From: Acidithrix ferrooxidans
GTDB lineage: Bacteria; Actinomycetota; Acidimicrobiia; Acidimicrobiales; Acidimicrobiaceae
Length of the DNA: 64,000 nt
Direction: 5' to 3'
Assembly (NCBI RefSeq): GCF_000949295.1
Contig: NZ_JXYS01000023.1
Location: forward strand, 1 to 64,000
In this document: in pieces, positions 2,061-34,754 of the stretch
Layout of the letters: every line of letters starts with the position of its first letter
How positions within the stretch are numbered: the first letter of the stretch is position 1
Made by a program: the position numbers and the translations under genes
Notes under the pieces: generated by a model
What the model was told of the DNA's origin: nothing
What the model saw: the letters and a program-made list of their open reading frames with translations, nothing else
Database searches by the model: none

Positions 2061-2173
2061 AGAGTCCACTCGACCGAGTGAACTCACGGGATTATCTATA
2101 AATAAGAAGCATCGTTCTTGCGACAGTAAGTCTGTTTTTCATGCACATGGTTTGAGTAAGACACTTTTAGTGG
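2061..2173 (+). other. Left attachment site of the integrated element (attL)
   Basis: These 113 bp align without gaps to 34571-34683, offset 32510 bp, with about a dozen mismatches. Positions 2135-2168 are a 34-bp identical core. The right copy overlaps the 3' end of tRNA-Val and the 3' end of the serine recombinase gene, which is the usual arrangement for integration at a tRNA. The left arm, 2061-2134, also resembles the recombinase coding sequence (ESTRPSELTGLSINKKHRS), which points to a remnant of an earlier related element to the left. Confidence 0.8.
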
Positions 2174-2706: not shown

Positions 2707-3279
2707 TCAGCATCGTTCATCAAAAATTAGTCGCTGTTCGTGTTCGCTTGCGGCGTTCTGTATGGTTAACCCCAAATACGTCACCAGTGTTTCCACGATT
2801 ACTTCCAGCGGTTCAGTAGCATCGAGTACGATGTCGGCGATAATAGCGAGGCCAGATATCTCTTCTTCCACAGCGTGCCTTGGGACTCTCAATGCTTCAC
2901 CTCGTTGGACAAGCCGTCCTTCCAACGTGTTGGCGTCGCAACTCAGGAATACAAGGACTACTTGAGTGTCCCTCATCACGTCACGTATGCCTGACAAAGC
3001 ACCAATATGGCGAATCCCATCAACTATCAATACGTCAAATCCACCTGGAAGATCAACAAGCAGTTGGGATACGAACGCGTGCCAACCTTCACGGATCATG
3101 GCCGATCCGACTTCTTGCAGGGATAGACGCGTCGATGGCAGCCCTTGTGCTTGGGCTCTAGCGCGCACTACGTCGCCAAAGGACCGCACGTGGCAACCCG
3201 ACAACGTCTCAGCCAAGGACCAGCAGAGCGTGGTCTTGCCGCTCCCAATGTGGCCACTCACGCATATGACGTGGGTCAA
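2707..3279 (-). CDS. P-loop nucleotide kinase-like protein
   Basis: The N-terminus carries a clear Walker A motif, GHIGSGKTT (residues about 9-17), followed by the layout of a small nucleoside/nucleotide kinase: a DVLIVDGIRH strand at the middle and an RLVQRGEALRVPRH segment that resembles a lid. I prefer the TTG start at 3279 because it overlaps the stop of the ASCH gene (TTGA), giving translational coupling and 190 residues. A longer form starting at 3333 would overlap by 58 bp. It is the last gene of the radical SAM operon. The family recalls dephospho-CoA kinase and UPF0200-type kinases; the substrate is unknown. Confidence 0.7.
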   Translation of the reverse strand: MTHVICVSGHIGSGKTTLCWSLAETLSGCHVRSFGDVVRARAQAQGLPSTRLSLQEVGSAMIREGWHAFVSQLLVDLPGGFDVLIVDGIRHIGALSGIRDVMRDTQVVLVFLSCDANTLEGRLVQRGEALRVPRHAVEEEISGLAIIADIVLDATEPLEVIVETLVTYLGLTIQNAASEHEQRLIFDERC

Positions 3280-3791
3280 AGCTGCGAATCCTGCTTTTCG
3301 CCGCTTTGAGGCGATTGACGCAGGACGACCCATCCACGCTTATCGACTTTAGATACACGAACGCGTGGAAGCTGTGTTGCCATTTCCACCCCCAGAAGCG
3401 TCACGTAGTGCTTTCCAATGCGTTGCCGCCAAAAGTCCGAACTCTCAGCACAAATAGCATTAGAATACGTCATTCGTATTAGATCAAGCTCTTTCTTATT
3501 TTGGAGGGTTTTACAATCGACCGATGACACTGTAAAATATCCGACCACTGGCCCAGCTTTCAAGAAAACTAGATCACCTACCAACACTCGGTTATACGGA
3601 GCAATTGCGTGTTTTGAAAACCTAGATTCAATGGTCTTCTTCCCGCTCAAAACTAATGACAAAAATGGCTCGACAAAAATGGCAAGATGAATGCCCACCG
3701 CATCATCAGCGAAACGTGAGCCTAGTTCAGCCCACTCATTAGAACTATCCACTGCGGACCGCAAGTCTGACATAATCTGTTCCGTCGTCAT
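3276..3791 (-). CDS. ASCH-domain protein
   Basis: The 171-residue protein shows the ASCH signature: a strand, then SGKKTIESRF (about residues 49-58), then VLVGDLVFLKAG (69-80). This fold is related to PUA and binds RNA or nucleosides; some members are amidohydrolases acting on modified cytidine. The gene overlaps the methyltransferase-like gene upstream by one base and the kinase-like gene downstream by four bases if the TTG start is used, so the three are probably translated together. Its role in the operon may be recognition of a modified nucleotide or RNA; this is inference. Confidence 0.75.
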   Translation of the reverse strand: MTTEQIMSDLRSAVDSSNEWAELGSRFADDAVGIHLAIFVEPFLSLVLSGKKTIESRFSKHAIAPYNRVLVGDLVFLKAGPVVGYFTVSSVDCKTLQNKKELDLIRMTYSNAICAESSDFWRQRIGKHYVTLLGVEMATQLPRVRVSKVDKRGWVVLRQSPQSGEKQDSQL

Positions 3792-4990
3792 TAGCCATGT
3801 TCTCGATCCATGTGTTCCTGAAGTTTGAGTAACAACACATCAAATAGTCGCCGACTCACAGAACTCGAGAAACCGATGCGTCGCCCATGATTAATAATAT
3901 TGGACAAGGTGAATTGCATATGTTTAAGATCATCATTACACATTTCAATCAGAGTTTCAAGTGGCTTAGGATGAGCAACACCGAATATGCGATTTCCACT
4001 TGTCCAGAACCCGATTTGTTGGCGCACGGGATCTCGGCGACTTACCGTTTTCAAAACGTTCCCTGGCACAAGGCTCATTAGGTCTGTCGGTACTCCCGAG
4101 GAACGGATCTTTATTCGGACAGGTCCGAATTGAACCTCAGACCATTCCTCCCTTTTCGGAGGCGAAAGGGTTAAAGACGTGGGCCCTACTTTTGAGAGGA
4201 CCAGTAGATCTCCGTGCCTCCAAGTGTCCGGTACTAGTACACTCACAGATGAGGCTCGTAGTGACATCGCTTCGAAATGCGGTGTTCTATATCCGATAGA
4301 GCGGATAATCTCGTCCACTTGGAGGAGACCTAATGCTGGCAAGAGTTCTAATAGCTGCGCTCTCTCTGACATCACGCCTGGACGTGTCGCTAGGCTCGGT
4401 TGGCAAAGCAGGACAGATGCGCCCATGCTACAAACACGAGAAGCGGCATCCAGGAACCACAGAGTGTCGTCAAGGTACCAAGGCGGATCGAGAATCGCGG
4501 ACTCTGCCTGGAGGTATGGCACTTCGTCCTTTGACAGGTCGATAGCGAGAATTCTATGATCTTTACCATTAATCGTTTCTGTCAGATAACTATTGCGATC
4601 CAAGAGCACATGATGGTGTTGGGGAAACGTCGATACCCCTAGCCGGTATGTGCTATGTGTGCCAATGTGCACCACGGTCGATAAGTTACTTAGGCCATCA
4701 ACTGCACGGGATACGAGCTCAGCAGAGCTATCGATAGTGAACCGCCAGTCTGCATCAAACGGATGAGATACCGGGAGAGGCTTATGTCGCGTTGTTGGCC
4801 CAGCGGATGATAAGGAAGGGAGATGTCGTCGTTGCGTCTCAAGCTCCCACAGCGTGAGTAGCGTGGTGGGATAATACCCTGGAGAGATCTCAAAGACAGC
4901 TTCTAAATCCACTATCGTGCTATCATCTAAACTAGTAAGCCAAACCTCTGCCTCTTCACGGAAGGCCTTATCCTCAAGGTCGAATAGCAA
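3791..4990 (-). CDS. DPPW-motif methyltransferase-like protein
   Basis: The 399-residue protein has LDPPWYLDD at about residues 167-175, which matches the catalytic motif IV (D/N)PP(W/Y) of amino-methyltransferases acting on adenine or cytosine. A glycine-rich SAM-binding loop is not obvious; VVHIGTHSTYRLG (106-118) is at the expected place but is divergent. The start is TTG at 4990, two bases after the radical SAM stop codon. The C-terminal third (RREEWSEVQFGPVRIKIR onward, loosely) has no motif I recognise. It could be a methyltransferase or a protein built on that fold with another activity. Confidence 0.6.
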   Translation of the reverse strand: MLFDLEDKAFREEAEVWLTSLDDSTIVDLEAVFEISPGYYPTTLLTLWELETQRRHLPSLSSAGPTTRHKPLPVSHPFDADWRFTIDSSAELVSRAVDGLSNLSTVVHIGTHSTYRLGVSTFPQHHHVLLDRNSYLTETINGKDHRILAIDLSKDEVPYLQAESAILDPPWYLDDTLWFLDAASRVCSMGASVLLCQPSLATRPGVMSERAQLLELLPALGLLQVDEIIRSIGYRTPHFEAMSLRASSVSVLVPDTWRHGDLLVLSKVGPTSLTLSPPKREEWSEVQFGPVRIKIRSSGVPTDLMSLVPGNVLKTVSRRDPVRQQIGFWTSGNRIFGVAHPKPLETLIEMCNDDLKHMQFTLSNIINHGRRIGFSSSVSRRLFDVLLLKLQEHMDREHG

Positions 4991-4992
4991 GA

Positions 4993-5997
4993 CTAATCAG
5001 TCCTCAGCGATACCAGTGGCATTGACATAAGTAGCTCGTCCTCACGAAATCGCATGCGAAGTTCTTCATTCCAAGCTTGCACGGCCTCCTCCTGTACTGC
5101 CAATGAACGGCGGTGTGTCTCGCGAAGGCGAGGTTCAACAACGCCGAAAGGCTGAATTTGCAAAGGAACAAGTCTTAGAGGTAGGTTCTTGTGAATAACC
5201 TGCAATCGATCTACAAAGTCACCCATATCTCGTGTAAGTGATGGTGCTTCTGGAACGGTGAATGTGGCATAGGCGTACGTATCAATGCCAAAGTCCACCA
5301 GCCGCTTGAAGAGCTTAAACTGGCGGGCGAATAGTGTCTTATCGGCTTTAGTATTAAAAGTGAAGGAGGCTTCATTGAAGCCCTTGAAGCATCCAACTCG
5401 GCCATAAAGGCGATATTCTCGCACTAATTCTCGTTCAGAAGGTTGTAGAAATCGCCAAAAATAGTCGTTGCTTAGATTGTCGTCAGACCAAAGGTAGACT
5501 GCGTTATCCAATCCGCGCTTGCGCAAGGCCGTCATCATCCAGACGAGCCATTCAGGGGAGAGGTCAGGTTGACCACCAGAGCAATCTATTATTAGCGGGC
5601 GATCCGGCTCGCACATATACAAGTCCACTAGCTCTTGTGCCGTGAACCAGCCGGACCTAGTCTCGTTGGCTGAAAGCAAATTGTACGGCACGAAACAATA
5701 CCAACAACGCCAATTGCATGCGGCAATCTGGAATACCTGCGCAGTCATCACATCTGTTGGATCTAGTGCCAGGCGATACGAGGCAGGTATGATTGGCAAT
5801 GGATTGGCAGGCCAAGGGTGTGGTGCGCCAATCCGAAAGTGGTGCACACGCCCGTATCCTTTGCAATTTGTGGGCTGCGAAAGATCCTGTTCTTGAGCGG
5901 ACTGTTCGATACGTGCCAGGAGAATCTCCTGTGTCGATATCCTTACGGCCTTGCTGCGAAGCCTTGCCGAGATTTGTTCATGGTCTAGTGAGGTCAT
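4993..5997 (-). CDS. Radical SAM protein of unknown function
   Basis: The 334-residue protein contains C94-N-W-R-C98-W-Y-C101, the CxxxCxxC motif that holds the 4Fe-4S cluster, followed by CSGGQPDLSPEW (139-150), which fits the SAM-binding GGxP motif. The rest matches a single radical SAM barrel with no extra cluster-binding cysteine group that I can see. It is the first gene of a four-gene operon with a DPPW protein, an ASCH protein and a kinase-like protein. The CNxxCxYCF pattern superficially recalls viperin-like and QueE-like enzymes, but the rest is not close enough for me to name a reaction. Confidence 0.75.
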   Translation of the reverse strand: MTSLDHEQISARLRSKAVRISTQEILLARIEQSAQEQDLSQPTNCKGYGRVHHFRIGAPHPWPANPLPIIPASYRLALDPTDVMTAQVFQIAACNWRCWYCFVPYNLLSANETRSGWFTAQELVDLYMCEPDRPLIIDCSGGQPDLSPEWLVWMMTALRKRGLDNAVYLWSDDNLSNDYFWRFLQPSERELVREYRLYGRVGCFKGFNEASFTFNTKADKTLFARQFKLFKRLVDFGIDTYAYATFTVPEAPSLTRDMGDFVDRLQVIHKNLPLRLVPLQIQPFGVVEPRLRETHRRSLAVQEEAVQAWNEELRMRFREDELLMSMPLVSLRTD

Positions 5998-6207: not shown

Positions 6208-6307
6208 AGTTTCCTTTATTAAAGACACGCTATTTAGTTATCAGCATGGCATGATTCTACACCGTGTTAGTATTTAGGTCCAGTTAAGCGAAGGAAGTTA
6301 TAAGGAT

Positions 6308-6500
6308 CATGTGTCCTAACTGTATGTCCGAGAAGAACTTGTCTGTCAAGGAAACTCGACGTACGTATTCGGCGTCGATTTGGCGACTGCCTATACGATT
6401 TCGTAACGATCGAGCAGGTCAGTGGCGACCAGTTTCAAGTTCGAGAGCCTGACGGTCACGAAGAGGCGTTCGAACTTGCAAAGCTGCGCAAGGGCAAAGA
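6308..6500 (+). pseudogene. NrdR-like gene remnant (zinc ribbon, frameshifted)
   Basis: From ATG 6308 the translation MCPNCMSEKNLSVKETRRTY closely matches the start of the intact NrdR-like protein at 7750 (MECPNCGSSKNLSVKETRR). After a frameshift near 6370 the match continues: RRRFGDCLYDFVTIEQVSGD corresponds to RRRCGGCYYDFTTVEHVSEI, and later EEAFELAKLRKG corresponds to EEPFDRVKLRNG. The first cysteine of the second zinc knuckle is lost. The frame decays after about 6500. This is a broken paralogue in the opposite orientation to the intact copy. Confidence 0.75.
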
Positions 6501-6931: not shown

Positions 6932-7750
6932 TCATCGTAGCCCAATCGCCTCTGTCTCATAGTCTTCGGATGACCTAAACAACTTTGCGGTACTTGAAAA
7001 CCTAAGTGCGGCAATATGGTCTACTCGACGCAAACATCGAATAACTTCGGCTGCGATCTGACTTGAAGTCACAATCGCCTGACCGCGAAGTTCCCTCTCA
7101 ACCTCATCTGCGATTTTCGTTGCAAAAGTAAAGACCGTATTATCAGATTCTCCTCGGCCCTTTGATGCCACTCCAATAGATCGTTCCAGCTTTTTCCGAT
7201 CGTAGCTTCTCCGATCCCCATTCCTTTTCACAACGTAATGAAGTGTAGTATAAGCTGGAAAATGCTTCAGTTCCGGGTAGGTATCGTGAAGCCAACGTCG
7301 GAAATCGTCAACGGTCCTCCAACCCCTCGTAGGCTCGCTTCGGTCCAAACGGCCTATTTGGGTAAGTGCATAACGAATATGCCACACATCATTAAAGGCT
7401 CTCAAATGAATGAGCACGATATGGCCAAGTTCCTGGCTTCCAATCACACTCTCATGAGAAACCCGGCGAGCCTCTAAATAGATGGATTCAATTAGTTCAG
7501 TGAGCCGTCCGTTGTTCGCTACCTCTACCGCAGCTTTCACTATTCCGTTTCTCAACTTAACACGGTCAAACGGCTCTTCCTTGCCGTTCCTCTTTCGCAC
7601 CTTCAGCGTTATCTCGCTTACATGTTCCACGGTGGTAAAATCGTAGTAACACCCTCCACAGCGTCTTCGTCTCCGGATCCCGCCGTCAGCTGATCTCCGT
7701 GTTTCTTTCACAGACAAGTTCTTGCTGGACCCACAATTCGGACACTCCAT
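6932..7750 (-). CDS. NrdR-like regulator with two ATP-cone domains
   Basis: The N-terminus MECPNCGSSK with C3, C6, C31 and C34 forms the zinc ribbon typical of the ribonucleotide reductase repressor NrdR. A first ATP-cone follows (VRKRNGKEEPFDRVKLRNGI, about residues 51-70, through about 135). A second ATP-cone starts at VVKRNGDRRSYDRKKLERSI (about 176-195) and runs to the end. Ordinary NrdR has one cone and about 150 residues; this protein has 272. NrdR senses ATP/dATP and represses nrd genes; none is in the window, so this copy probably has another target. A broken paralogue sits at 6308, and the same 13-mer precedes both. Confidence 0.8.
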   Translation of the reverse strand: MECPNCGSSKNLSVKETRRSADGGIRRRRRCGGCYYDFTTVEHVSEITLKVRKRNGKEEPFDRVKLRNGIVKAAVEVANNGRLTELIESIYLEARRVSHESVIGSQELGHIVLIHLRAFNDVWHIRYALTQIGRLDRSEPTRGWRTVDDFRRWLHDTYPELKHFPAYTTLHYVVKRNGDRRSYDRKKLERSIGVASKGRGESDNTVFTFATKIADEVERELRGQAIVTSSQIAAEVIRCLRRVDHIAALRFSSTAKLFRSSEDYETEAIGLR

Positions 7751-8715: not shown

Positions 8716-9663
8716 TTAACTCTTTATTTCTGAGCGAGCAATTCTCAAGTTTTCTTTGGTAACTTGTGTGGGTGACATCGAAATAGGGGGCTTAAGCTCT
8801 GGACTGAAGAACATCACTTCATTACCTCGATAACGATTAGCGGCACTATAACTTAGAGAATACTGGATTGATTGATACCCGCGATATAGGTCAAAGATCG
8901 GTGTAACGGCATCATAAGAAACGATCCATGAACTCCGAAGACTTGTTACTCGTATCGCAATCTCTTCGTGGTGCTTATGTTCATAAAAGTTCTTATAGAG
9001 ACCTCTTCCTTTTTCGTAATACGGAGGATCAATATATGAGAGAGTGCGTTGAGCCGAATCTATTGACCCTGTCTGAAGGAAATCTTTAGCGTCCGCTTGA
9101 GTTAAGGTGATTCTATTTCTGAACCGGGCCACTTTTCTAATGCGCTGGATCAAATTAATTTTGTTATATCTTGCATCGAGTTTCCATTGACCATGCTGAT
9201 CTTTCCCGCCTATTGGTCCACCTGTTATGATTCCCGATCTATTCGTTCGGTTGAGGAAGAAAGTGGAAAACGCAAGGTCTAAATTTGTCGGATCACTGGC
9301 TAGTTGTACATCGCGCTGCCGTTCCCATTCTTCAAAAGAGACCTCGGTATCATAAATTTTTCGACAAAGGTCCTCTGTGCAGTTGAGAACCGCATCCCAG
9401 AATGCAAAAATGCTCCGGTCCAAATCATTGAGATGAATAGCATTTACATATTCTTCGAAAAGAAGTGCCAATCCCACTGCCGCGCCACCTGCAAAAGGCT
9501 CAATATAGTCACATCCAATTAACTGGTTTTGAACGATTAAAAGCTTGATGAAGTTGGCTAGCTTTCTCTTTCCACCTGGATAACGCAGTGGCGACGGATA
9601 TGTGATCAGAGAAGCGTAATTCAAGCCCAAATCGTCTCTAGAAAAGGTTGAAGTGTGTCCCAT
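8716..9663 (-). CDS. D12-class adenine-N6 DNA methyltransferase (Dam/DpnM type)
   Basis: The 315-residue protein begins with SPLRYPGGKRKLANF (about residues 24-38) and continues YIEPFAGGAAVGLAL (53-67), the SAM-binding motifs of the D12 class. The catalytic motif is DPPYY at 212-216. It probably methylates adenine in a short DNA site. The start overlaps the upstream ParB-like gene by 43 bp; a later start is possible but would come close to the YPGGK motif. No cognate restriction enzyme is visible next to it, so the pair may be a solitary modification unit or a defence system with an unusual partner. Confidence 0.85.
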   Translation of the reverse strand: MGHTSTFSRDDLGLNYASLITYPSPLRYPGGKRKLANFIKLLIVQNQLIGCDYIEPFAGGAAVGLALLFEEYVNAIHLNDLDRSIFAFWDAVLNCTEDLCRKIYDTEVSFEEWERQRDVQLASDPTNLDLAFSTFFLNRTNRSGIITGGPIGGKDQHGQWKLDARYNKINLIQRIRKVARFRNRITLTQADAKDFLQTGSIDSAQRTLSYIDPPYYEKGRGLYKNFYEHKHHEEIAIRVTSLRSSWIVSYDAVTPIFDLYRGYQSIQYSLSYSAANRYRGNEVMFFSPELKPPISMSPTQVTKENLRIARSEIKS

Positions 9664-10973
9664 CCGGTCCTAATATCAGATGGAGTGGGATTAACGTGAA
9701 AATTATGAACATATTGATTGAATGTTGCAGTCGAGGCTTGGATCATGTTTCGGTCATTGTTCGCTACAAGCTCTATAGCCTTTTTAAGCTGATCATTGAT
9801 TTGCTCTCTCACATAAAGATGCCCAGCTAGGACCTTCATTTTCTTCGCTAATGGGTCAGTTGACTGATATTCGTTGCTCAACTCACCATTGGATTGCAGA
9901 CTATGCGTAATACTAAGTTCGAGGAACAATCTAAGAAGAATCGCGCCTGCATTAGGATATGTTTCAATATTAAGGGTCTTCAGTTCATTGTAGATCCTAT
10001 TGATTCTTGGTGGCGGAATATTGAGCATGCAAGAAGAGGGTATAACGACGGTTCGTTCGACCGTATTGCGATGACGGCGACGTTTAGGTGTTTCAACTAT
10101 TGGTGTGATTCGTCCAGTAACAAGTTCACCTAGCAGTGCAGGTGACTCCCAACGTTCGCTTCTTGGCACCATTGAATTAGGTATATTTTCTGCGAACTTT
10201 TCTCGGTTTGCGGCGTGATATACGTCATGCACGTTTGAAGTCCCACTTAGAAAACTTTCGACCACATACGAAAGTCCGTCGACCAGTTCGCTGACCGGAT
10301 AATAACTTACGATTTGACCATCAACGATTTCAATGCCTAGCTTCTCTCTAACGCTTCTGCTAGAAAAAAGTCTCTCGATATTTGTCAGAATCTTCCGCCC
10401 AGAATTTTGTAATTCGGGTTCGAGTGATCCATATTGCAATACGAAGTCAATTACTTGTCCGGCAGGAGATCGGCTCCCGCTATGGCGAGCAGCAAATCGG
10501 TCTTTCTCATTCGAATTCCATTCAAACAAACCGGCACCATCATTTAGACCGGTGTGTCTAAGTTCAATCCAGTGATCGGCTTCTTGAGGATTATCAAAGA
10601 GACGTGCTTGGATTGTATCGATCGGCTTTTCGTGGAAGCGTGCTGAAAGCGTTCTCAAACGACGCTGATCCTTCGAGGATAGACATTGTTCTAAAATTGA
10701 TGGCGTGTCTAACGCCTTGAGAGCTAAAACTCGTCTATTCCCTTCGATTACCTTGTATCGCATTTTTTGGTCTTTAGTGGGAATAATTGCAATTAGGTTC
10801 ATAGGATCTAATCCATTTTTAATTATGTCGTCTGCAAGAACCACTACCTTAGTTCCAAGCATCTTGCCGAGTTCAATGTATACATCTTGCTGTGAATTTT
10901 GTTTTTGTCCTAGGCGGGGATTTTCTTCGTCAAGTAGTAAATCACTTACAACAACCTCGACAAGTTCAGCCAT
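9621..10973 (-). CDS. ParB/sulfiredoxin-fold protein paired with the Dam-type methyltransferase
   Basis: The N-terminal region (VVVSDLLLDEENPRLGQKQ, then DDIIKNGLDPMNLIAI and YKVIEGNRRVLALKAL, about residues 70-95) is the ParB N-terminal domain with its ExxRR-like motif; such domains bind CTP or act as nucleases. The remaining 300 or so residues are not recognised. I take ATG 10973 as the start because AGGGGGTT precedes it; a longer frame begins at 11051. It gives a protein of about 450 residues. The gene overlaps the methyltransferase gene, which argues for a functional pair, possibly recognition or cleavage of DNA depending on its methylation. Confidence 0.65.
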   Translation of the reverse strand: MAELVEVVVSDLLLDEENPRLGQKQNSQQDVYIELGKMLGTKVVVLADDIIKNGLDPMNLIAIIPTKDQKMRYKVIEGNRRVLALKALDTPSILEQCLSSKDQRRLRTLSARFHEKPIDTIQARLFDNPQEADHWIELRHTGLNDGAGLFEWNSNEKDRFAARHSGSRSPAGQVIDFVLQYGSLEPELQNSGRKILTNIERLFSSRSVREKLGIEIVDGQIVSYYPVSELVDGLSYVVESFLSGTSNVHDVYHAANREKFAENIPNSMVPRSERWESPALLGELVTGRITPIVETPKRRRHRNTVERTVVIPSSCMLNIPPPRINRIYNELKTLNIETYPNAGAILLRLFLELSITHSLQSNGELSNEYQSTDPLAKKMKVLAGHLYVREQINDQLKKAIELVANNDRNMIQASTATFNQYVHNFHVNPTPSDIRTGWDTLQPFLETIWA

Positions 10974-11322
10974 CGTTTCAACCCCCTGTAAATCGAACTT
11001 GACAAAGCATTCTGATGGTTCGTGATCAACCATCATTCTGCCACAAACCATTAATCGTTTAGATTCGCAGAACAGCTTATTCGTCCGAGAGATGCCAATT
11101 TGAGATTTCCGTCGAATTAAGAGTATTGCGTCATCAAAACCCAGCGATTCGGCGCTATGGCGAAGAATTGTCGCTCGAGAGTATTAGCGAACAAGGAATT
11201 CTCAATGCCAACGGTCTCAGATGAACTCAGGCTTAGTGGCCTGCTGATATAGGATACGTATCCGCATAAGTGGAAATCCTCAGATAAGAAGAAAGGACAA
11301 GAGCAAACTTTGTCATTCTGAC

Positions 11323-11532
11323 ATGCCTGATAGTGGCTTACCGGTGAAGGACTTCGTACCTAAACAGATACAGCATCGCTTGCATGCCGACGAGATTATT
11401 GAATTGATGGCAGCCTACCAAGCTGGAATCCTAATGAAAGATTTGGCAAAGCGCTACCAGATTGATCGCCGAACGGTATCAGCGATATTGAGGCGACAGG
11501 GAGTGGATAAGCGCCCTCGGCGGACCCGTTGA
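11323..11532 (+). CDS. Small HTH protein (recombinase C-terminal type)
   Basis: The 69-residue product carries MKDLAKRYQIDRRTVSAILR (about residues 41-60), a helix-turn-helix like the one ending many serine recombinases, plus a basic tail. It resembles the HTH at 2152-2463 and the one at 11752-11919. It could be a small DNA-binding regulator or directionality factor, or the left-over end of a recombinase gene from a nested element. ATG 11323 lacks a strong ribosome binding site. Confidence 0.5.
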   Translation: MPDSGLPVKDFVPKQIQHRLHADEIIELMAAYQAGILMKDLAKRYQIDRRTVSAILRRQGVDKRPRRTR

Positions 11533-11751
11533 TTGATTTGACTGAGAGATCTGTGGAGAGGTCAAGCCCCGCGGCACACTTCAATCCTAAGTCATCAATC
11601 ATCGATCTTACAAATACCGCAGATTTTCCAACATACTCGCCGATTGCTAAACCAACCCTCAACTCACGAGCTATCATGTCTTTGCAGTACCTCAGGTGCA
11701 TCTAGCTCCTCGGAGATCAGGATCCCTTGACACTGACTTGGGAGATGGGAG

Positions 11752-11919
11752 ATGAAATATACTATGCCCCAGGCCAACATCGGATCGCTTCTTGGTGACT
11801 ACCTCAGCGGGTCCTCCACCTACAAGCTCGCTCTCAAATATGGTCTAAACCGCCATACTGTCAGCAGTATCCTCGGAAAGTCTGGCATTCAGCCCGGTTG
11901 CCACCAACCCAGCGGCTGA
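11752..11919 (+). CDS. Small HTH protein (55 aa)
   Basis: ATG 11752 is preceded by GGGAGATGGGAG, a good ribosome binding site. The product reads MKYTMPQANIGSLLGDYLSG and then STYKLALKYGLNRHTVSSIL, a helix-turn-helix clearly related to TTYEIASQFGLHRHTVSRHL at the left end of the element. At 55 residues it is essentially only a DNA-binding unit. A regulator or excision factor is possible; so is a remnant of a recombinase tail. Confidence 0.5.
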   Translation: MKYTMPQANIGSLLGDYLSGSSTYKLALKYGLNRHTVSSILGKSGIQPGCHQPSG

Positions 11920-12206
11920 TCTTTGCTGAGTTCCCTAGACACTGGCAGAACGAGAGCCTATAAGTCCAGGCTACCTCGGAGGAAGAAGCCCAGTTGATCA
12001 AGACCTCGTCGCTACTAGCTCGAACCTCCTTCCATGTGCTGTCCGGCCTCGAGTCACAGTTCCGGAAAGAGCAACTAGTCTTGCAGTTAGGAACGCCGCG
12101 AAACGTGGAGTGTATGTGGGGTGTTAGTCCGCTCGATCCATTCGAAAGTTGAATATAAGCACTGGACCAGAGGCTGTCTACACACAGTCGCATTTGGAGG
12201 TGATTC

Positions 12207-12602
12207 TTGCCTCAATTGATTATTGCCGCAGGCAAGCCCTATTTGGTGATGCAGCCCGAACATCGAGCCGACCTTGAGAACCTTGTTTCCCTGCTGAGAT
12301 CCGGAGGTCTCAGCGCCGACCTTCAGATAACTGAATACGATCCGGGGCGTAGAGGAATCAGTTTCAATCAGGCCGAAGCCGTAGCTATCTATATCGGTGG
12401 TGCCATGACCGTAACGGTGATCGCAAACTTGACAAACGATATTTACGACAGGGTCAAGAACTGGGCAATTGCACGCTTCCTTGCAAAGGTAAAGAATGAT
12501 CCCAATGGCTTGCACCGTCCAGAGACTTTCACGATTTACGGCCCTGACAACGAGATCCTCAAAAGCTGGACGATCGACGACGGAGGCGAACACGAGTCCT
12601 AG
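12207..12602 (+). CDS. Hypothetical protein with one hydrophobic segment
   Basis: TTG 12207 is preceded by GGAGGTG at 12196-12202, a near-perfect ribosome binding site. The 131-residue product has a soluble N-terminal half, a hydrophobic segment AVAIYIGGAMTVTVIANL (about 58-75) and a C-terminal part ending FTIYGPDNEILKSWTIDDGG. It is convergent with the long defence operon, whose last gene ends at 12688 on the other strand. It could be a small membrane-associated effector, but no family is recognised. Confidence 0.6.
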   Translation: MPQLIIAAGKPYLVMQPEHRADLENLVSLLRSGGLSADLQITEYDPGRRGISFNQAEAVAIYIGGAMTVTVIANLTNDIYDRVKNWAIARFLAKVKNDPNGLHRPETFTIYGPDNEILKSWTIDDGGEHES

Positions 12603-12687: not shown

Positions 12688-13965
12688 CTACTCCGCAACG
12701 ACGACAAGTGCACGACGCAACGCACCAACTGCGTCGACAACGGCATTCATGATATCCTGATTGCCGTCCCAGAAGCCCAATGGCACAGGATGTTCCGAGG
12801 TTCTAGTTAGCGACTGAAGCAGTTCAACTAACCCACGATCCTCAAAGGTTAGTGCCGGATCGTTTCTTTTTCCATACCCCCGAAAAAGTCGCAGTTTCGG
12901 TGATCGAAAAGCATCGCCCGCGAGGTCGACCTTGAAAGGGTGGTCAAAAGCGAACAGGTCGTGAAACGCCTGATTCCGGGCATCAGCAATGACTGAACGA
13001 TATCTCTCTAACGATGGCTTTCCCTTACCCACGAGCGAAAATGGCAACTTGGTGAAGCAATGGGCGAGCTCCACCTGCTCGAAAACTGTTAGCCAGAATA
13101 TTAGCGGCTTGAGATCACAGATTCCCACCATAAGGCTTAGGAACGCGCGAGCACCGTCGGCAAAATTATAAGCCACCCTCAAGAGTTCGTTGTAGACCTC
13201 ATCGTCGTCCGACTTGTCGCGGTGGATGAATAGCGCTTCCGAAAACGCTTTCACTTGTTGCTGTATTCGAACGAGCATGTTGCTGAGGATAGATGGAGCC
13301 TCGTCCACTATGTCTGTCAAGTCAACAGGACGAGCGACGGTCTCCTGGAGAGCATGAAAAGCAGTCTCAAAGATATCACTCAAGGCTGTGATGTCGATCT
13401 CGTGGTGAGCAGCTGTCGCTTGCACTGCCGCCCAAGTCGAATCCAAACTAGTAATGTCACCCAATATGATCGCATCATTCAACAACTCGGCCGCAGAAAT
13501 TTGGTTTGGCGAATAGCGCAATACCTGAGCCCAAGAAACTCCGACGAGATCAACTTCTGCGGCTTCTGGATCGCCTATTCGACCAACCAAGCTAAACATA
13601 ATCGAACCCAGCAGCGGCAATTGTTCCAAAATCGCGGTTCTAAGATCAGCGGTATCATACTCTCCAATCACTTTTGCCGGAAGGCGCTTGAATTGCGAAG
13701 TGATTCGACTTTTCATTGTTATGATGATCGGTGGTAAGAGGAAGCCCCCATTCTCGTCAACGCGAATCGCAAGATAATGAACGTTTTTGATAGTTGATTG
13801 ACCCTCGCGAAGTAGAAACGAATTATTGAAAACTATGTGATCGTTAGGGCGAATGGACTCGGCACCCTTCCAGGCGTCGAACGCGTCCGACGCAAGAAGT
13901 AATTCGCACTGATCAACCACTGCTCGCTCAATGCGCTCGACTCGTTCCATCATTACCACCACCAT
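12688..13965 (-). CDS. Uncharacterised protein with HEPN-like RxxxxH motif
   Basis: The 425-residue protein is last in the seven-gene operon, 30 bp after the PHP-ATPase gene. Its helical C-terminal half contains R330-N-Q-A-F-H335, which fits the Rx4-6H motif of HEPN ribonucleases, in the sequence ARNQAFHDLFAF. The N-terminal half (residues 1-200) is not recognised. ATG 13965 and further ATG codons at 13953 and 13950 are possible starts. If it is a HEPN nuclease, it could be the RNA-cutting effector controlled by the upstream ATPases. The HEPN call rests on one motif and predicted helicity. Confidence 0.55.
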   Translation of the reverse strand: MVVVMMERVERIERAVVDQCELLLASDAFDAWKGAESIRPNDHIVFNNSFLLREGQSTIKNVHYLAIRVDENGGFLLPPIIITMKSRITSQFKRLPAKVIGEYDTADLRTAILEQLPLLGSIMFSLVGRIGDPEAAEVDLVGVSWAQVLRYSPNQISAAELLNDAIILGDITSLDSTWAAVQATAAHHEIDITALSDIFETAFHALQETVARPVDLTDIVDEAPSILSNMLVRIQQQVKAFSEALFIHRDKSDDDEVYNELLRVAYNFADGARAFLSLMVGICDLKPLIFWLTVFEQVELAHCFTKLPFSLVGKGKPSLERYRSVIADARNQAFHDLFAFDHPFKVDLAGDAFRSPKLRLFRGYGKRNDPALTFEDRGLVELLQSLTRTSEHPVPLGFWDGNQDIMNAVVDAVGALRRALVVVAE

Positions 13966-13995
13966 GTATTTTCATAATTACTCTTGACACAAGAT

Positions 13996-16800
13996 TCAGA
14001 TCTTGTACTTCTCTTTGCGTTTCTGAAATGCCTCTTCTCCGCCGTCAAGAATTTCGCAGGCGTGCTCGCGAATGCCGTATCGACCGAGAGTTGTCTTGCT
14101 CTTCTCATTCTTTGGTTGGCTATGTTCAAGTGAACCAGTGAGGTACTCGAACGTTCGAGCGTCCCTGTTGGGGCGGTCAGCCCCATTACGGTTCGCCACT
14201 ATCACCTCTTCGGAGTCAGCACCAATCACCAGGTTCGCGTTGTGACTTACCATGATGATCTGTCGCTCACGCTTCCGCTCAACGAGGTAGGGCACGACCG
14301 TGTTGTAGATCGACCGACTATCGAGATCGTCCTCAGGCTGATCGATCAGAAGTGGCCACGGCTCCTGCGACTCATTGAGGAGTAGAGTCAATGCGAAGAG
14401 GGCCTGTTTACCTGGAGTCATCGATGATCGACCGAAGCCGCCAATCTTGTCTTCATCGAGTTCTGCTGTAAAGCGAACTTCAGGAGCGGTCGCGAGAACG
14501 TTCACAACCGTATCGACGACGGCGTATCCCTTATTGAGCTTTTGCGTGCCGGAGCGAATCGCGGCTAGGAACGATCCAGGATCATCCTGCGCCTTCACGT
14601 AGTCAAGTGGCTGCCCAACTTTCTGCACGTAATCAGTGATCTCATTCTTGTTGAACGCTAGTGACAGAGACGTTACTGTATCAGGATCGACTTGAGCTTC
14701 CACTCCGAACACGAGGTCTTCCAGAACGCGTCGTTCCTTGGTGAAAGTAGACTTAAGTTGAACGAATGCTTCGCTTCGGGTATTTAAGCTCTTCGCTATC
14801 TTCGCCGCCTCATCAGATTGCGCCTTCTCCTTCTTGGTGCGGCTTGACTCTTTCTTGTCAATCTCCCCGAGCGCCTTGACTTGCTTTTTGTGAGCTTCGC
14901 TGAGCTTTTCGAGCTCAGCGTTAGCCGTGTGCTTCGCGATAAGCTCAGCGTTATCCCTGGTGATCCGCTCGATTTCGGAATTAAGCTTTGTCAGCACACC
15001 GAGCGTAGTAATGAGCGCCTCTGTTAGCTCTTTTTCGACACTCGCATTGAGGGCATCCTTTGATCGCCGACGCTGGTATTCTACCTTAGCGGCAACTACA
15101 TCTGGCAATTGATCGCCTGACGGTTCCACTCTGACTGAGACCACGACTGAACCTGGCATCACGCTAGCTTCGTCATCGCCTGTCTTCACGGTATATTGAG
15201 AGAGCAGACGAACCTCCTCGTCAATTTCAGTCAGGCGAGTATGCCTTTCGTCGAGCTCTCCCGCTATGATTAGATATGAAGCGATCTCTTCGTCAGAAAG
15301 CTCTGATTCCTTCTTGATCTGGTCAATCTTCGCCTGAAGGTTGTCGCGTTCAGTCATAATCGCGTTCTTATCGCCAAGGTCGCGAATCGAGGCGCTCAAC
15401 CCGTCCACGGCAGCTGCTAATTCGAACCACATAACAATGCCGGCACGGATGTCGACGTTTGCGGCCCGGACTTTTGTCAGAGCCTGATCATAGTCTGTCT
15501 TGAAGTTCGGGTAGTGACGAAATAGTGACGGCACGATCTTCTGCGTGACCTTGTCGGGGTGTTCGCTGATCACATAAAGTGAGTTCTGCGGTATGTAAAT
15601 AACCTTACCGCTCGTCACTTCGGCCGACCCCCACTCGACTGAGCACACGACATCACTAACGTCTACCCAGCTCTTTCCAGCGGCCGGACCCACCATGTTG
15701 CGATCACCATTCGACACATCTATCTGCTGTTGAATCGTGTCTTCAGGATCAACAGCGTGAGCAATGAAGGCAAGCAATGCCGATTTACCAGATGATCGAC
15801 TACCGATAATGGAGTTGAGATTTCGGTTGAAGACAATCTCCGTCGGGAAGTCTGCAGTGTTAGAGAACTTCACTCGCGAGATGTATTTGTATGGTTCCTT
15901 AAAATCAGGCTCGTTCGTTTGCATAACAACCCGTTGCGCCGGTTCGATGAGGGTCTGTAAAAGACCCTCATAAGTTAGATCTGCCTTAATCCAGGTAATA
16001 TTCTGCCGCTGTCCTTCGGCATCGCTCTGCTTTCCCAATCCGCTTCGAAGAGTGTCGAAACTGTGGGCATCACAACCACCAAATACAGGCTTAGGAGTAA
16101 CTTGTTCGTCCGATTCGAGCCGATCAGTGCTGAGAAAATAATCCCTAGATGCAGGTCCAGCAAAGAACGCGTGCGACATCTTGTCAGTCTCATCGCTGAG
16201 ATTGTTCTTGCGCTTCTTGCTGCCCTTACTTTTATTTCCGGGACGAATGCCGTCTCCTTTGGCCGAAGTGACAATTAACACGTTGTCTTGGAAAATCGCA
16301 CGCTCTCCGAATGTTTGCTTGATCGCGTGCTCGATACTCGCTCGAGAAACTGTTGCACTCTCAAATTCATTCGCGCTCTTGAGTTCGGCGCAGAAGACGG
16401 GCTTCTTCGCCTTCCCAACCGTTGTCTCCGTCTGCAGCGCCATCAGAAACTTGCGTGCATCTGACGCACTAAGATCGGGTCGGAAGAGTAGGTGAATATT
16501 TACCGACTGCCCAGCATCATTGAGTACCTCAGGCAGACGGAGCTCCAAGTTCGGGAAGAAAGCCTTGTCAATAAAGCCCGGATAAAAGGACTCGTAATGC
16601 TTCTTGAACTCGAAAAAACTGTCAAGCGAGAAGTAGTCTGTGATGCCCACTCCAGCAACATCTGAATCATGAATGACCTCGCAGAACTGCTTCCAGTCAA
16701 GATCTTTGTCCGACTTGGTGTACGCATCGCCCGACTTCGTACCCGGCGTGTGGACATGCAGATCCCACTTGCGCCACTCTGATCCGCGCGGAAAGTCCAT
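13996..16800 (-). CDS. PHP-domain ATPase of the TrlF/Ppl kind
   Basis: The 934-residue protein opens with KWDLHVHTPGT (H15 and H17) and ITDYFS (53-58), with GGCDAH at 241-246: the metal-binding motifs of a PHP phosphoesterase. A Walker A motif GSRSSGKS (333-340) follows, then a long coiled-coil region (about 470-720) and an ABC-type Walker B LLIDQPEDDLD (817-827) with MVSHNAN (850-856). This is the architecture of SMC/RecN-like ATPases fused to PHP, known from the single-gene Ppl defence proteins. The start overlaps the upstream stop by one base. It probably senses or processes nucleic acid ends during infection. Confidence 0.8.
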   Translation of the reverse strand: MDFPRGSEWRKWDLHVHTPGTKSGDAYTKSDKDLDWKQFCEVIHDSDVAGVGITDYFSLDSFFEFKKHYESFYPGFIDKAFFPNLELRLPEVLNDAGQSVNIHLLFRPDLSASDARKFLMALQTETTVGKAKKPVFCAELKSANEFESATVSRASIEHAIKQTFGERAIFQDNVLIVTSAKGDGIRPGNKSKGSKKRKNNLSDETDKMSHAFFAGPASRDYFLSTDRLESDEQVTPKPVFGGCDAHSFDTLRSGLGKQSDAEGQRQNITWIKADLTYEGLLQTLIEPAQRVVMQTNEPDFKEPYKYISRVKFSNTADFPTEIVFNRNLNSIIGSRSSGKSALLAFIAHAVDPEDTIQQQIDVSNGDRNMVGPAAGKSWVDVSDVVCSVEWGSAEVTSGKVIYIPQNSLYVISEHPDKVTQKIVPSLFRHYPNFKTDYDQALTKVRAANVDIRAGIVMWFELAAAVDGLSASIRDLGDKNAIMTERDNLQAKIDQIKKESELSDEEIASYLIIAGELDERHTRLTEIDEEVRLLSQYTVKTGDDEASVMPGSVVVSVRVEPSGDQLPDVVAAKVEYQRRRSKDALNASVEKELTEALITTLGVLTKLNSEIERITRDNAELIAKHTANAELEKLSEAHKKQVKALGEIDKKESSRTKKEKAQSDEAAKIAKSLNTRSEAFVQLKSTFTKERRVLEDLVFGVEAQVDPDTVTSLSLAFNKNEITDYVQKVGQPLDYVKAQDDPGSFLAAIRSGTQKLNKGYAVVDTVVNVLATAPEVRFTAELDEDKIGGFGRSSMTPGKQALFALTLLLNESQEPWPLLIDQPEDDLDSRSIYNTVVPYLVERKRERQIIMVSHNANLVIGADSEEVIVANRNGADRPNRDARTFEYLTGSLEHSQPKNEKSKTTLGRYGIREHACEILDGGEEAFQKRKEKYKI

Positions 16801-23900: not shown

Positions 23901-24072
23901 TTCGCTCCGCAGCCCTGAGGAGACGGTCCTGGAGTACCACCTCCCGATAATCGCTACGTTCGGGTCTCTCTCCGTCGGGAGCAATACGAGGCCCCCACTC
24001 CGTCTGATAACCAAGCTGGCGAAAGTACTCCAGTGCGGCATCTTCGACAGTTCCCTCGTTGAGCTTGCTCAT
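20962..24072 (-). CDS. hsdR: Type I restriction enzyme, R subunit
   Basis: The 1036-residue protein is the normal length for Hsd[21 protein letters not shown] (141-160) gives the PD...ExK nuclease site (D144, E158, K160). The SF2 translocase follows with QGSGKS (300-305), DEAH (405-408), FLGFTGTP and QAIARVNR-type helicase motifs. The C-terminal helical part binds the methylase core. ATG 24072 overlaps the hsdS stop by four bases. It cuts unmethylated DNA after ATP-driven translocation, in complex with HsdM and HsdS. Confidence 0.95.
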
Positions 24073-32004: not shown

Positions 32005-32853
32005 ATGACCGGGCAGTTGCCTGTCAAACGGACTGGGCGTCGTGAGTTGGAAGTCATTGGTAAGTCTCTTAGTAATTATGATCTTGCAATTCTTGAGTCC
32101 GTGGCCAAACATCGCTTTCTCACGACTAATCAAATCTGTAGATTCCACTTCACCAACAAACCAACCAAGACCGCAGCGTTAAGGTCAGCTAACCGAACGC
32201 TTGCCAGGTTGCGAGAGTTACGGCTTCTCGTCAATCTGGAACGGCGAATCGGTGGAGTCCGTGCCGGGTCTGGATCCTTTGTCTGGACTCTCGGTATAAC
32301 CGGTGCCCGAATTCTAAATAATGATGATGCTGACGGCAGTACTAGTGGCCGATACCGGGAACACGAACCAACGACCACCTTTCTTGAACACCACCTCGCT
32401 GTAGCAGAAGTTCACCTGGAACTTCAGATGATCGCCGCTGGTCAGGCAGTAGCACTGAGCAACCTGCAACTTGAGCCGACATGTTGGAGGTCGTATCTCG
32501 GACTCGGTGGCGAGACGAGATGGCTAAAACCTGATCTGGCGGCCACAACTACCACAGACGACTTTGAGGATCGCTGGTTCTTCGAGATCAACCGAGGAAC
32601 CGAGCCACCTTCTCGGGTGCTTCGTAAGTGCCAGCAATTCCGGGGTTATAGAGCTACCGGCATCGAACAGCGCCGTATCGGAGTCTTTCCAGCGGTGGTG
32701 TGGATCGTTCCAAGTTCCAAGCGGGTCCAGAGCCTACAGATCTACCTCAAGGAGCATGAAGTAATGAGCGATCGGCTGTTTTCCTTTATAACACTCGATC
32801 AGCTGGGAGATCTGGTAGTTAGCGGTCCCGAAGGGAAAGGAGGTATCCAGTGA
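32005..32853 (+). CDS. Replication-relaxation family protein
   Basis: ATG 32005 follows GGGGGTT; a longer frame from 31969 is less likely. The 282-residue product starts with a winged-helix part (LSNYDLAILESVAKHRFLTT, QICRFHF, ANRTLARLRELRLLVNLERR) and continues with a nuclease-like half (FLEHHLAVAEVHLEL, WLKPDLAA, RWFFEINRGTE), the pattern of the replication-relaxation family of actinobacterial plasmids and integrative elements. It may act as initiator or relaxase. It overlaps the recombinase gene by four bases. Confidence 0.8.
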   Translation: MTGQLPVKRTGRRELEVIGKSLSNYDLAILESVAKHRFLTTNQICRFHFTNKPTKTAALRSANRTLARLRELRLLVNLERRIGGVRAGSGSFVWTLGITGARILNNDDADGSTSGRYREHEPTTTFLEHHLAVAEVHLELQMIAAGQAVALSNLQLEPTCWRSYLGLGGETRWLKPDLAATTTTDDFEDRWFFEINRGTEPPSRVLRKCQQFRGYRATGIEQRRIGVFPAVVWIVPSSKRVQSLQIYLKEHEVMSDRLFSFITLDQLGDLVVSGPEGKGGIQ

Positions 32854-34715
32854 GTTATCCCCAGAAACCAGACGAAACACCAGCTGATGGACTTGATCAA
32901 TCTGACAATCAGAGGTACAACATGAGTGACCTAAACGGAGAACCAAGTCCAATGGAAGCAGCCACATATATGCCAAGACCATCGCTCACCGAAGCCATCA
33001 AAGAGTCCCTAGCGCCCAAGGTCGCCATCTCATATTTGCGAGTCTCAACCCGTGACCAAGCAACACGAGGCGGGGAGGCGGAAGGATTTTCCATTCCCGC
33101 CCAACGAGATGCCAACAGACATAAGGCGGCATCGCTTGGAGCCATTGTCATCAAGGAGTTCGTTGACCGGGGCGCCTCTGCCCGATCGGCAAACCGACCT
33201 GAGCTGCAGCGCATGCTCGAATATATCCAAGAGCACGAAATCGATTATGTCATCGTGCATAAACTCGATCGCCTGGCACGCAACCGAGCCGATGACGTCG
33301 AGATCAGCCAGTCACTCACCAATTCCCGGGTAAGGCTCGTATCCACGACCGAAAGCATCGACGAAACCCCATCGGGAATGTTGCTCCATGGGATTATGAG
33401 CTCTATTGCCGAGTTCTACTCCCGCAATCTTGCCAACGAGGTCATCAAGGGTATGACACAAAAAGCTCGAGGTGGCGGCACCGTCTCCAAGGCTCCCCTT
33501 GGTTACCGCAACGTGCATAATTCAAGCGCCGAAGGACGCGAAATCCGAACCGTCGAGGTCGACCAAGATCGGGCACCTTTGATTACATGGGCCTTTGAAA
33601 CCTATGCCACCGGCGAATGGACCATGTCCTCACTGGCTGAACGACTGGCGAGCCGCGGACTAACTACCAAGGCAACGCCAAGGATTCCATCGAAACCAAT
33701 GACCGAGTCCTATCTCAACAAAATCCTCATCAACCCCTACTACAAGGGTCAAGTTCACTTCCAAGGTGCCTTGCTACCTGGAAAACACGAACCGCTAGTC
33801 GATGAGGTAACCTGGCAACGGGTACAAAGCGTCATCGCCTCACACGTCAACGGTGAGAGAACCCGGACTTATCCTCATTTTCTAAAAAGCACCGTGTTCT
33901 GCGGATCATGTGGATCCCGGTTGCTAGTACAGATCGCCAAGTCCCGTTCGGGGATGCGATATGGATATTTCATGTGTTCGGCTCGCCACGCCAAACGCAA
34001 CGATTGTGAACAAAAGTCCGTTCTGATCGACGAAGTAGAAGAGAAGATCGCCGAATACTACAAAGGAATCTCCATCAGTGCAGAGTTTCGACGCCAGGTT
34101 GAATCCACCTTGCTTATTGAGTTGAAACGAGCTCGCCAAGAAACAGACGATGAGCAAGAGGACATGCGCCGGGAACAGGAAAAGCTGATCCGGGAACGCG
34201 ACAAGCTGATGCAGGCACACTACGGCGGTGCTATTCCACTCGACGTTCTTAAAACAGAACAAGACCGGATCGCATCTGGGATGGCGCGCATCGCCAGCCG
34301 GATCGAGGCATCAACTTCGCATTTTGACATTGTCGAAGGGAACCTCACAAAGGCGCTCGATCTGCTCGAGGACTGCGCTACCGCTTATAGCTGCGCTCCA
34401 GATCACATCAAGCGAATGTTCAATCAGGCCTTCTTCAATAGGATTCTGGTAAATCCAGATCTCGGCATTCGAGCCGAGCTGGCACCACCGTTTGATAATC
34501 TGCTCTCTCCGGAGCTGCGTGTAGCGGTTCGGGGTGACCAGCAAGAAGATGACGGCATCCAGGAAAACAAAGAGTCCACTCGACCGAGTGGACTCGAGGG
34601 ATTATCTATAAATAAGAGGCATCGTTCTCCCAACCATCAGTCGATTTTTCATGCACATGGTTTGAGTAAGACACTTTTGGTGGGCGCTAAGGGACTCGAA
34701 CCCCCGACCTGCTGA
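32850..34715 (+). CDS. Large serine recombinase (integrase of the element)
   Basis: The 621-codon frame has the resolvase domain with catalytic Ser66 (SYLRVSTRDQ) and HKLDRLARN (137-145), a recombinase domain (APLGYRNV, ILINPYYKGQ), a zinc ribbon (C351, C354, C376, C386) and a coiled coil (about 400-480). The first 40-50 residues lack resolvase similarity; Met25 or Met35 may be the real start. The last 18 codons, from L604, pass through the attachment core into the tRNA-Val gene (VGAKGLEPPTC is antisense tRNA), so this tail is acquired on integration. In the circle the frame would instead join the HTH ORF at 2152. Confidence 0.92.
   Translation: MSYPQKPDETPADGLDQSDNQRYNMSDLNGEPSPMEAATYMPRPSLTEAIKESLAPKVAISYLRVSTRDQATRGGEAEGFSIPAQRDANRHKAASLGAIVIKEFVDRGASARSANRPELQRMLEYIQEHEIDYVIVHKLDRLARNRADDVEISQSLTNSRVRLVSTTESIDETPSGMLLHGIMSSIAEFYSRNLANEVIKGMTQKARGGGTVSKAPLGYRNVHNSSAEGREIRTVEVDQDRAPLITWAFETYATGEWTMSSLAERLASRGLTTKATPRIPSKPMTESYLNKILINPYYKGQVHFQGALLPGKHEPLVDEVTWQRVQSVIASHVNGERTRTYPHFLKSTVFCGSCGSRLLVQIAKSRSGMRYGYFMCSARHAKRNDCEQKSVLIDEVEEKIAEYYKGISISAEFRRQVESTLLIELKRARQETDDEQEDMRREQEKLIRERDKLMQAHYGGAIPLDVLKTEQDRIASGMARIASRIEASTSHFDIVEGNLTKALDLLEDCATAYSCAPDHIKRMFNQAFFNRILVNPDLGIRAELAPPFDNLLSPELRVAVRGDQQEDDGIQENKESTRPSGLEGLSINKRHRSPNHQSIFHAHGLSKTLLVGAKGLEPPTC
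34571..34683 (+). other. Right attachment site of the integrated element (attR)
   Basis: It matches 2061-2173 over 113 bp with a 34-bp identical core at 34645-34678. The core ends in the encoded CCA of tRNA-Val. The left arm is coding sequence of the serine recombinase. Crossover within the core would excise the element and leave the tRNA intact. Confidence 0.8.
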
Positions 34716-34754
34716 GTGTAAATCAGCTGCTCTAACCAACTGAGCTAAACGCCC
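34678..34754 (-). tRNA. tRNA-Val (UAC), CCA encoded
   Basis: Read on the minus strand, the acceptor stem GGGCGTT pairs with AGCGCCC, the D-arm reads TAGCTCAGTTGGTTAGAGCA, the anticodon stem GCTGA/TCAGC encloses the loop TTTACAC with anticodon TAC, and the T-arm contains GGTTCGAGTCCC. The 3' CCA is encoded at 34678-34680. This is the integration target of the element. Confidence 0.95.

Follow-up and report, generated by a model that had tools for sequence, protein, structure and literature searches.

What do four tightly packed genes do together in the actinobacterium Acidithrix ferrooxidans? The question is raised by a 64,000-nucleotide stretch of its genome (contig NZ_JXYS01000023.1, positions 1 to 64,000; hereafter the window), whose open reading frames include a minus-strand operon (5997-2707) encoding a radical S-adenosylmethionine (SAM) enzyme (RS), a class I SAM-binding transferase (MT), an ASCH domain protein and a P-loop kinase (KIN). 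A first-pass annotation of the sequence had already recognized these four protein types, correctly, and had proposed that they form one functional unit acting on a nucleotide. The reading favoured here, quite possible rather than probable, is that this cassette would be a mobile intracellular conflict system, likely directed against phages or other mobile elements, that modifies a nucleotide or a nucleic-acid base.

The four genes leave almost no space between them: RS and MT are two bases apart, the MT/ASCH gap is -1, and ASCH and KIN overlap. The KIN reading frame is open up to an ATG codon (3333-2707, 208 residues); however, its start is probably TTG 3279, in a TTGA arrangement with the ASCH stop codon, because the family alignment and the sequence agree on this position and most relatives start near there. 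Scans for consensus promoters and terminators gave no useful signal.

Besides the window, 58 loci encode RS (43-57% identity); they span no fewer than 14 phyla and include plasmids and one archaeon (53 loci from a scan of GTDB genomes; seven plasmid records from tblastn, five of which were fetched). MT, ASCH and KIN usually follow directly after RS in these relatives. The common form of the locus comprises seven genes, DUF6932, XRE with an IrrE-type domain, DUF4186, RS, MT, ASCH and KIN, as established from plasmid-locus annotation, tblastn and Pfam. DUF6932 is nucleotidyltransferase-like, with the pattern G[ST]-x(7-11)-D-x-[DE] in 36/36 proteins; XRE is a regulator bearing an IrrE-type HExxH protease domain (IrrE/M78), the HExxH motif being present in 47 of 49 copies; and the two genes usually overlap by 4 bases. 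Beside RS (58 loci, window excluded), XRE and DUF4186 are each found 51 times, ASCH 47, KIN 44, MT 41 and DUF6932 36 times. Of the 39 loci whose flanking DNA extends for 5.5 kb or more in both directions, 19 have all seven genes and seven more lack DUF6932 alone. The gene-neighbourhood analysis that the first-pass annotation had called for thus added DUF6932, XRE-IrrE and DUF4186 as partners in most relatives; the four-gene set it had described is real in the window, but the usual system has seven genes, with a sensor/regulator half, and the setting is a mobile defence island; the annotation had recognized neither these three partners nor the island.

The proposal of a single functional unit is upheld by the operon, the recurring gene order, fusions, co-variation and selection. 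MT is fused to ASCH at two loci (L047 and L030), ASCH to KIN at L013 and XRE to KIN at L032; each fusion is an uninterrupted frame in which both parts give near-complete profile matches. All seven families also correlate with one another in their pairwise distances (r 0.56-0.88), which reflects joint transmission and is by itself no proof of function. The ratio of nonsynonymous to synonymous substitution rates (dN/dS) is mostly 0.05-0.35 in four cyanobacterial pairs, the few higher values coming from near-identical genes with few changes; the cassette genes are under purifying selection. Because identical gene order recurs in dozens of genomes and dN/dS is low, the operon is far beyond chance. 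In one pair of loci (L003 and L004), synonymous divergence is 0.69-0.78 for DUF4186 and MT-ASCH-KIN and 0.12-0.29 for DUF6932, XRE and RS, a mosaic that looks as if parts of the cassette had been exchanged by recombination. On the plasmid of Rhizobium sp. WYJ-E13 (L058), a DUF763 gene (11321-12583) and the end of KIN share four bases.

The window copy is a reduced four-gene form, the enzymatic half of the set. Three other loci among the 39 (L011, L030 and L050) likewise encode MT, ASCH and KIN without nearby DUF6932, XRE and DUF4186. The RS tree places the copy of Kribbella sindirgiensis (L002) closest to that of the window, and there the regulator genes form an operon of their own that faces the enzyme genes. 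The possibility that the regulator half lies elsewhere in the window's genome (about 98% complete) was rejected by XRE and DUF4186 searches: an XRE relative used as query found just a 71-residue helix-turn-helix match and DUF4186 gave none, while DUF6932 was not searched there.

The motif CNWRCWYC is found in 55 of 57 RS relatives, and all three cysteines of its CX3CX2C core are invariant (57/57). Sequence profiles give weak partial matches only. Pfam matches Radical_SAM weakly in the window RS, the RS and MT of the window score below the cut-off of every family model, and profile searches placed RS in no characterized family with an unrelated set of partners, a placement by which the first-pass annotation would have been refuted. 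A viperin profile is matched by 42 of 47 members, far under its cut-off. Membership of RS in the viperin family, which the first-pass annotation had named as a comparison for an antiviral product, was rejected: the window protein scores 15.4 bits against a cut-off of 180 (NF038283), over residues 91-164 alone, and its nearest fold lies with the pyruvate formate-lyase (PFL) activase. In the AlphaFold2 model (predicted local distance difference test, pLDDT, 94.8), the 50 best matches among solved structures are all radical SAM enzymes, and the closest predicted fold is that of the PFL activating enzyme (3c8f; Z 17.5, 3.2 A, 232/245 residues, approximately 11% identity). QueE, TYW1, spore photoproduct lyase, RlmN and viperin come next (Z approximately 12-13), and Foldseek also gives the peptide maturases SuiB and SkfB; other radical SAM families may be missing from the VIA list of RS matches, and absence from it is not taken as exclusion. 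Shared fold gives no substrate identity.

MT relatives carry DPPWY or close variants in 40/40 cases. The MT model (pLDDT 91.7) is predicted to lie closest to the branched-chain polyamine synthase BpsA (6j27), in a match that takes in the N-terminal domain (Z 19.8 over 271 residues), and reaches a Z of at most approximately 16 against transferases outside the BpsA group. PF10237 (N6-adenineMlase/EEF1AKMT1) matches 23 of 31 MT relatives (best 1.9e-8) and BpsA_C just one of the 31 (E 0.004); the window MT matches neither, nor any other Pfam family. The C-terminal region of MT is extra and conserved (SxSRRD...TSGNR). Motif I of the window MT contains His112, a position taken by proline in 38 of 40 relatives. 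A GxKxxExR motif is found in 38 of 45 ASCH proteins, and the window copy exceeds the Pfam cut-off for its domain. KIN relatives all have a Walker A motif (41/41); the window protein matches AAA_33 (E 5e-11), with AAA_18 and AAA_17 also above their cut-offs, and profile matches to 3lw7/3h0k (E approximately 1e-12) place it nearest to UPF0200/adenylate-kinase-like proteins.

The cassette is horizontally mobile. In the window, it lies between direct 113-base repeats (Table 1), which point to an integrative island of approximately 32.5 kb whose far end holds the cassette. The recombinase 3' ends in the repeats beside tRNA-Val are probably the trace of two related elements inserted in tandem. RS is rare in the window's phylum (1/396 genomes), and its tree mixes phyla and includes one archaeal row. 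Vertical inheritance in the window's lineage was rejected, the window's genome being the only carrier among 60 relatives or the 396 genomes of the phylum. Of the seven plasmid records that carry the cassette, six are typed as conjugative. The Tolypothrix PCC 7712 copy (15983-21923) sits within an 18,401-base insertion that the sister strain PCC 7601 is reported to lack (PMC9679502); the insertion also holds recombinase, DDE-integrase and AAA-ATPase genes. RS has no match in 50,697 phage records, no relative confirmed by alignment in IMG/VR viral contigs, and no PHROG was found for RS, MT or ASCH. A phage-borne hypermodification enzyme was therefore rejected, given no phage or viral-contig relatives and BFVD fold matches that are generic radical SAM proteins. 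Outside the island, close to its left edge, group II intron domains of two different subtypes are matched (976-1198 and 1687-1805), and repeated units of the kind CATGTAGGTTTAGCCTCATCATTGGG stand at approximately 1310-1450.

The setting is rich in defence genes. Besides PD-Lambda-5 (Table 1), the island encodes type I restriction-modification and a type II-like methyltransferase and carries one OLD/AriA-like and one PDC-S73-like gene. At the other loci, the 95 nearest neighbours matched 109 PADLOC models (1e-10) and a control of 95 proteins at arbitrary positions (20 stretches of the window's phylum) matched 38, many of these 38 seemingly falling on the same few helicase-like proteins; the figures count models rather than proteins, with some test flanks being near-copies from four related cyanobacteria, and with a control drawn from other genomes and unmatched for mobility. 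The neighbour matches include Argonaute-associated nuclease (4), dGTPase (4), E1-E2 (3), DISARM, BREX, AbiE and type IIG and type I enzymes. A dGTPase gene adjoins the cassette downstream of KIN, in both orientations, at five cyanobacterial loci (L003, L005, L008, L014 and L055), which suggests a link to deoxynucleoside triphosphate depletion. The cassette proteins themselves have no strong match in PADLOC 2.0 (2023), the only hits, both weak, being pVip (1.8e-4) and VakA (1.8e-5).

Table 1. Features of the cassette, its island and the PD-Lambda-5 system in the window.
Feature	Position	Strand	Details
RS, radical SAM enzyme	4993..5997	-	334 residues; cluster motif CNWRCWYC; Cys45 and Cys203 are near-invariant extras
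MT, class I SAM-binding transferase	3791..4990	-	399 residues; TTG start; DPPWY motif IV; N-terminal helical (winged-helix-like) domain
ASCH domain protein	3276..3791	-	171 residues; PF04266 23.7 bits (cut-off 21.2); motif GKKTIESR
KIN, P-loop kinase, adenylate-kinase/UPF0200-like	2707..3279	-	likely TTG start 3279; frame open to ATG 3333
PD-Lambda-5 genes B and A	8716..11051	-	upstream of the cassette, same strand and island; E 1e-117, 6e-191
Left boundary repeat	2061..2173	+	88% identical to 34571-34683; holds remnant of recombinase 3' end
Right boundary repeat	34571..34683	+	3' end of serine recombinase gene, running up to tRNA-Val
Serine (recombinase-family) integrase	32850..34715	+	right end of island
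tRNA-Val	34678..34754	-	probable island attachment site

Other genes of the island are as follows. Upstream of the cassette is an NrdR-like gene (6932-7750; zinc ribbon and two ATP-cone matches), and between the two lie 57 bases, inverted, that are left over from the start of a gene of this kind (6302-6358). The NrdR-like neighbour was rejected as a member of the cassette, being present solely in the window among the fetched loci. A minus-strand run at 12688-26773 encodes the type I restriction-modification system, an OLD/AriA-like ATPase-Toprim, a PDC-S73-like NTPase and a PHP/SMC-like protein. A separate MT-A70-like (DPPW) methyltransferase gene lies on the plus strand at 28614-29180, near the island's transfer-type ATPase gene.

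Nucleotide or nucleic-acid chemistry, as the first-pass annotation had proposed, fits the ASCH domain, the adenylate-kinase-like KIN and the dGTPase neighbours; as far as sequence tells, the substrate could be a free nucleotide, DNA, RNA or a protein, and the product may be a poisoned free nucleotide, a marked base or an altered protein. In the proposed mechanism, the regulator/sensor half of the full form (DUF6932, XRE-IrrE and DUF4186) would free expression upon stress or infection. RS would then attack its substrate with a 5'-deoxyadenosyl radical, MT would methylate or alkylate it, and KIN would phosphorylate it, in that presumed order, while the ASCH protein, bound to the modified base or nucleotide, would guide the enzymes to it, to the detriment of the invader. 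ASCH proteins have precedents as handlers of modified bases in defence (PMC7641849, PMC13160076).

Several observations weigh against a conflict system acting on nucleotides, beside the limits of the PADLOC comparison given above. The predicted nearest fold of RS is that of an activase acting on a protein, which does not imply a nucleotide substrate. The cassette encodes no nuclease or other obvious killing component, and defence islands carry non-defence cargo too. MT, ASCH or KIN can be missing, as at L009, which has RS and KIN only, and at L037, which has XRE, DUF4186 and RS only. The window copy, with its altered MT motif I and without the regulator half, may be partly decayed.

Four other explanations draw on parts of the same evidence. 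The enzymes could place a modified base in the host's own DNA, tRNA or rRNA, where the ASCH protein would read it, and the gain would be protection from restriction or tuning of translation instead of the killing of invaders. The PF10237 matches of MT relatives to N6-adenine-methyltransferase-like proteins, the DPPWY motif, the MT-ASCH fusions and the presence of RNA or deazaguanine-precursor enzymes (TYW1, RlmN and QueE) among the RS fold matches are consistent with such self-marking, as is the description of ASCH domains as readers of modified bases (PMC7641849). It nevertheless appears unlikely: the cassette lacks a nuclease partner, several copies lack MT, and a very patchy spread together with a regulator half opposes housekeeping RNA modification. 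A role in the response to DNA damage, in which the IrrE-type sensor would detect damage and the enzymes would repair or detoxify bases or nucleotides, could account for the conserved IrrE/M78 domain, for spore photoproduct lyase among the RS fold matches and for the dGTPase neighbours. However, IrrE-type XRE proteins also resemble phage-type regulators, the setting is mobile and defence-rich, and the four-gene forms have no sensor, all of which makes damage response or clean-up of the nucleotide pool rather improbable.

The DUF6932/XRE-IrrE overlap, the nucleotidyltransferase-like pattern of every DUF6932 protein and the frequent plasmid location recall toxin-antitoxin or element-stabilizing modules, in which these two proteins would regulate or neutralize toxic enzymes; an ASCH and AAA_17 pair is also reported from predicted toxin-antitoxin operons (PMC7641849). 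Four or more enzymes would be unusual for a toxin, however, and a free-toxin role is hard to reconcile with the loci at hand because the window and three others retain the enzyme genes without a nearby regulator half; this explanation is about as improbable as damage response. Finally, the substrate of RS might be a protein, as it is for peptide maturases and for the activases of glycyl-radical enzymes, leaving the cassette unrelated to nucleotides. The PFL activating enzyme does rank above all nucleotide-acting enzymes as a predicted RS fold, and SuiB and SkfB are among the Foldseek matches. Against this stand the ASCH and nucleotide-kinase-like partners and the conserved neighbours of the cassette, among which no small precursor peptide was seen and no glycyl-radical enzyme either, whole genomes not having been searched for the latter. 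Glycyl-radical enzymes are also uncommon in aerobes, and many hosts of the cassette are aerobic. A protein substrate is very doubtful.

Within the conflict-system reading, a more specific proposal, which is possible but on the unlikely side, is that the seven genes would represent a new class of immune system, gated by the XRE-IrrE protease, in which RS, akin in fold to glycyl-radical activases, together with DUF4186, the BpsA-like MT, the ASCH reader and KIN would make a new modified nucleotide or base that halts the replication of phages. No paper describing this gene set as a system was found in a literature search. Few radical SAM enzymes are known from bacterial immunity; they are represented there by viperins, makers of antiviral nucleotide analogues. 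If the proposal is true, the locus would add to the viperins a radical SAM cassette of another family, with its own reader, kinase and transferase, and would point to a new modified nucleotide or base and, through it, to new antiviral chemistry. DUF4186 and DUF6932, Pfam families of unknown function, would gain a functional context, and the seven-gene definition and the fusions provide a concrete, clonable unit for testing.

Among known systems, the combination of a radical SAM enzyme and a kinase in a defence setting is familiar from viperins. The cassette resembles pVip (NF038283, PADLOC pVip/VakA) in having a radical SAM enzyme, sometimes with a nucleotide-kinase-like partner, in such a setting, and in a weak RS sequence match around the cluster-binding loop in most members; it differs in that this match is confined to the cluster region (15 bits against 180) and in an RS fold nearer to the PFL activase. 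To our knowledge, viperin loci have not been described with MT, ASCH, XRE-IrrE, DUF4186 and DUF6932 partners, unlike the cassette. RS matches the structure of nearly the whole PFL activase (3c8f), but at low identity and with no glycyl-radical enzyme seen beside the cassette. MT shares its fold, N-terminal domain included, with BpsA, although BpsA_C is weak and nearly absent in the family, and many of its relatives resemble N6AMT2/EEF1AKMT1-like methyltransferases through PF10237, although the window copy does not; the conserved C-terminal region sets MT apart from both.

Two further systems share the ASCH component. The Brig3-BapA defence pair uses an ASCH-like protein to act on a modified base of phage DNA (PMC13160076); BapA, however, is a glucosyl hydrolase whose partner is a DNA glycosylase, whereas the cassette set includes no glycosylase. 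Operons of the (PIN)-GNAT-EVE type contain ASCH and an AAA_17 ATPase (Bell 2020, PMC7641849, citing Iyer 2013). The cassette differs from these in its radical SAM core, usually accompanied by DUF4186, and in having no recognized EVE, GNAT or PIN domain, but it shares with them the pairing of ASCH with an AAA_17-type P-loop protein, XRE-type regulators, type I restriction-modification nearby and a predicted function in conflict.

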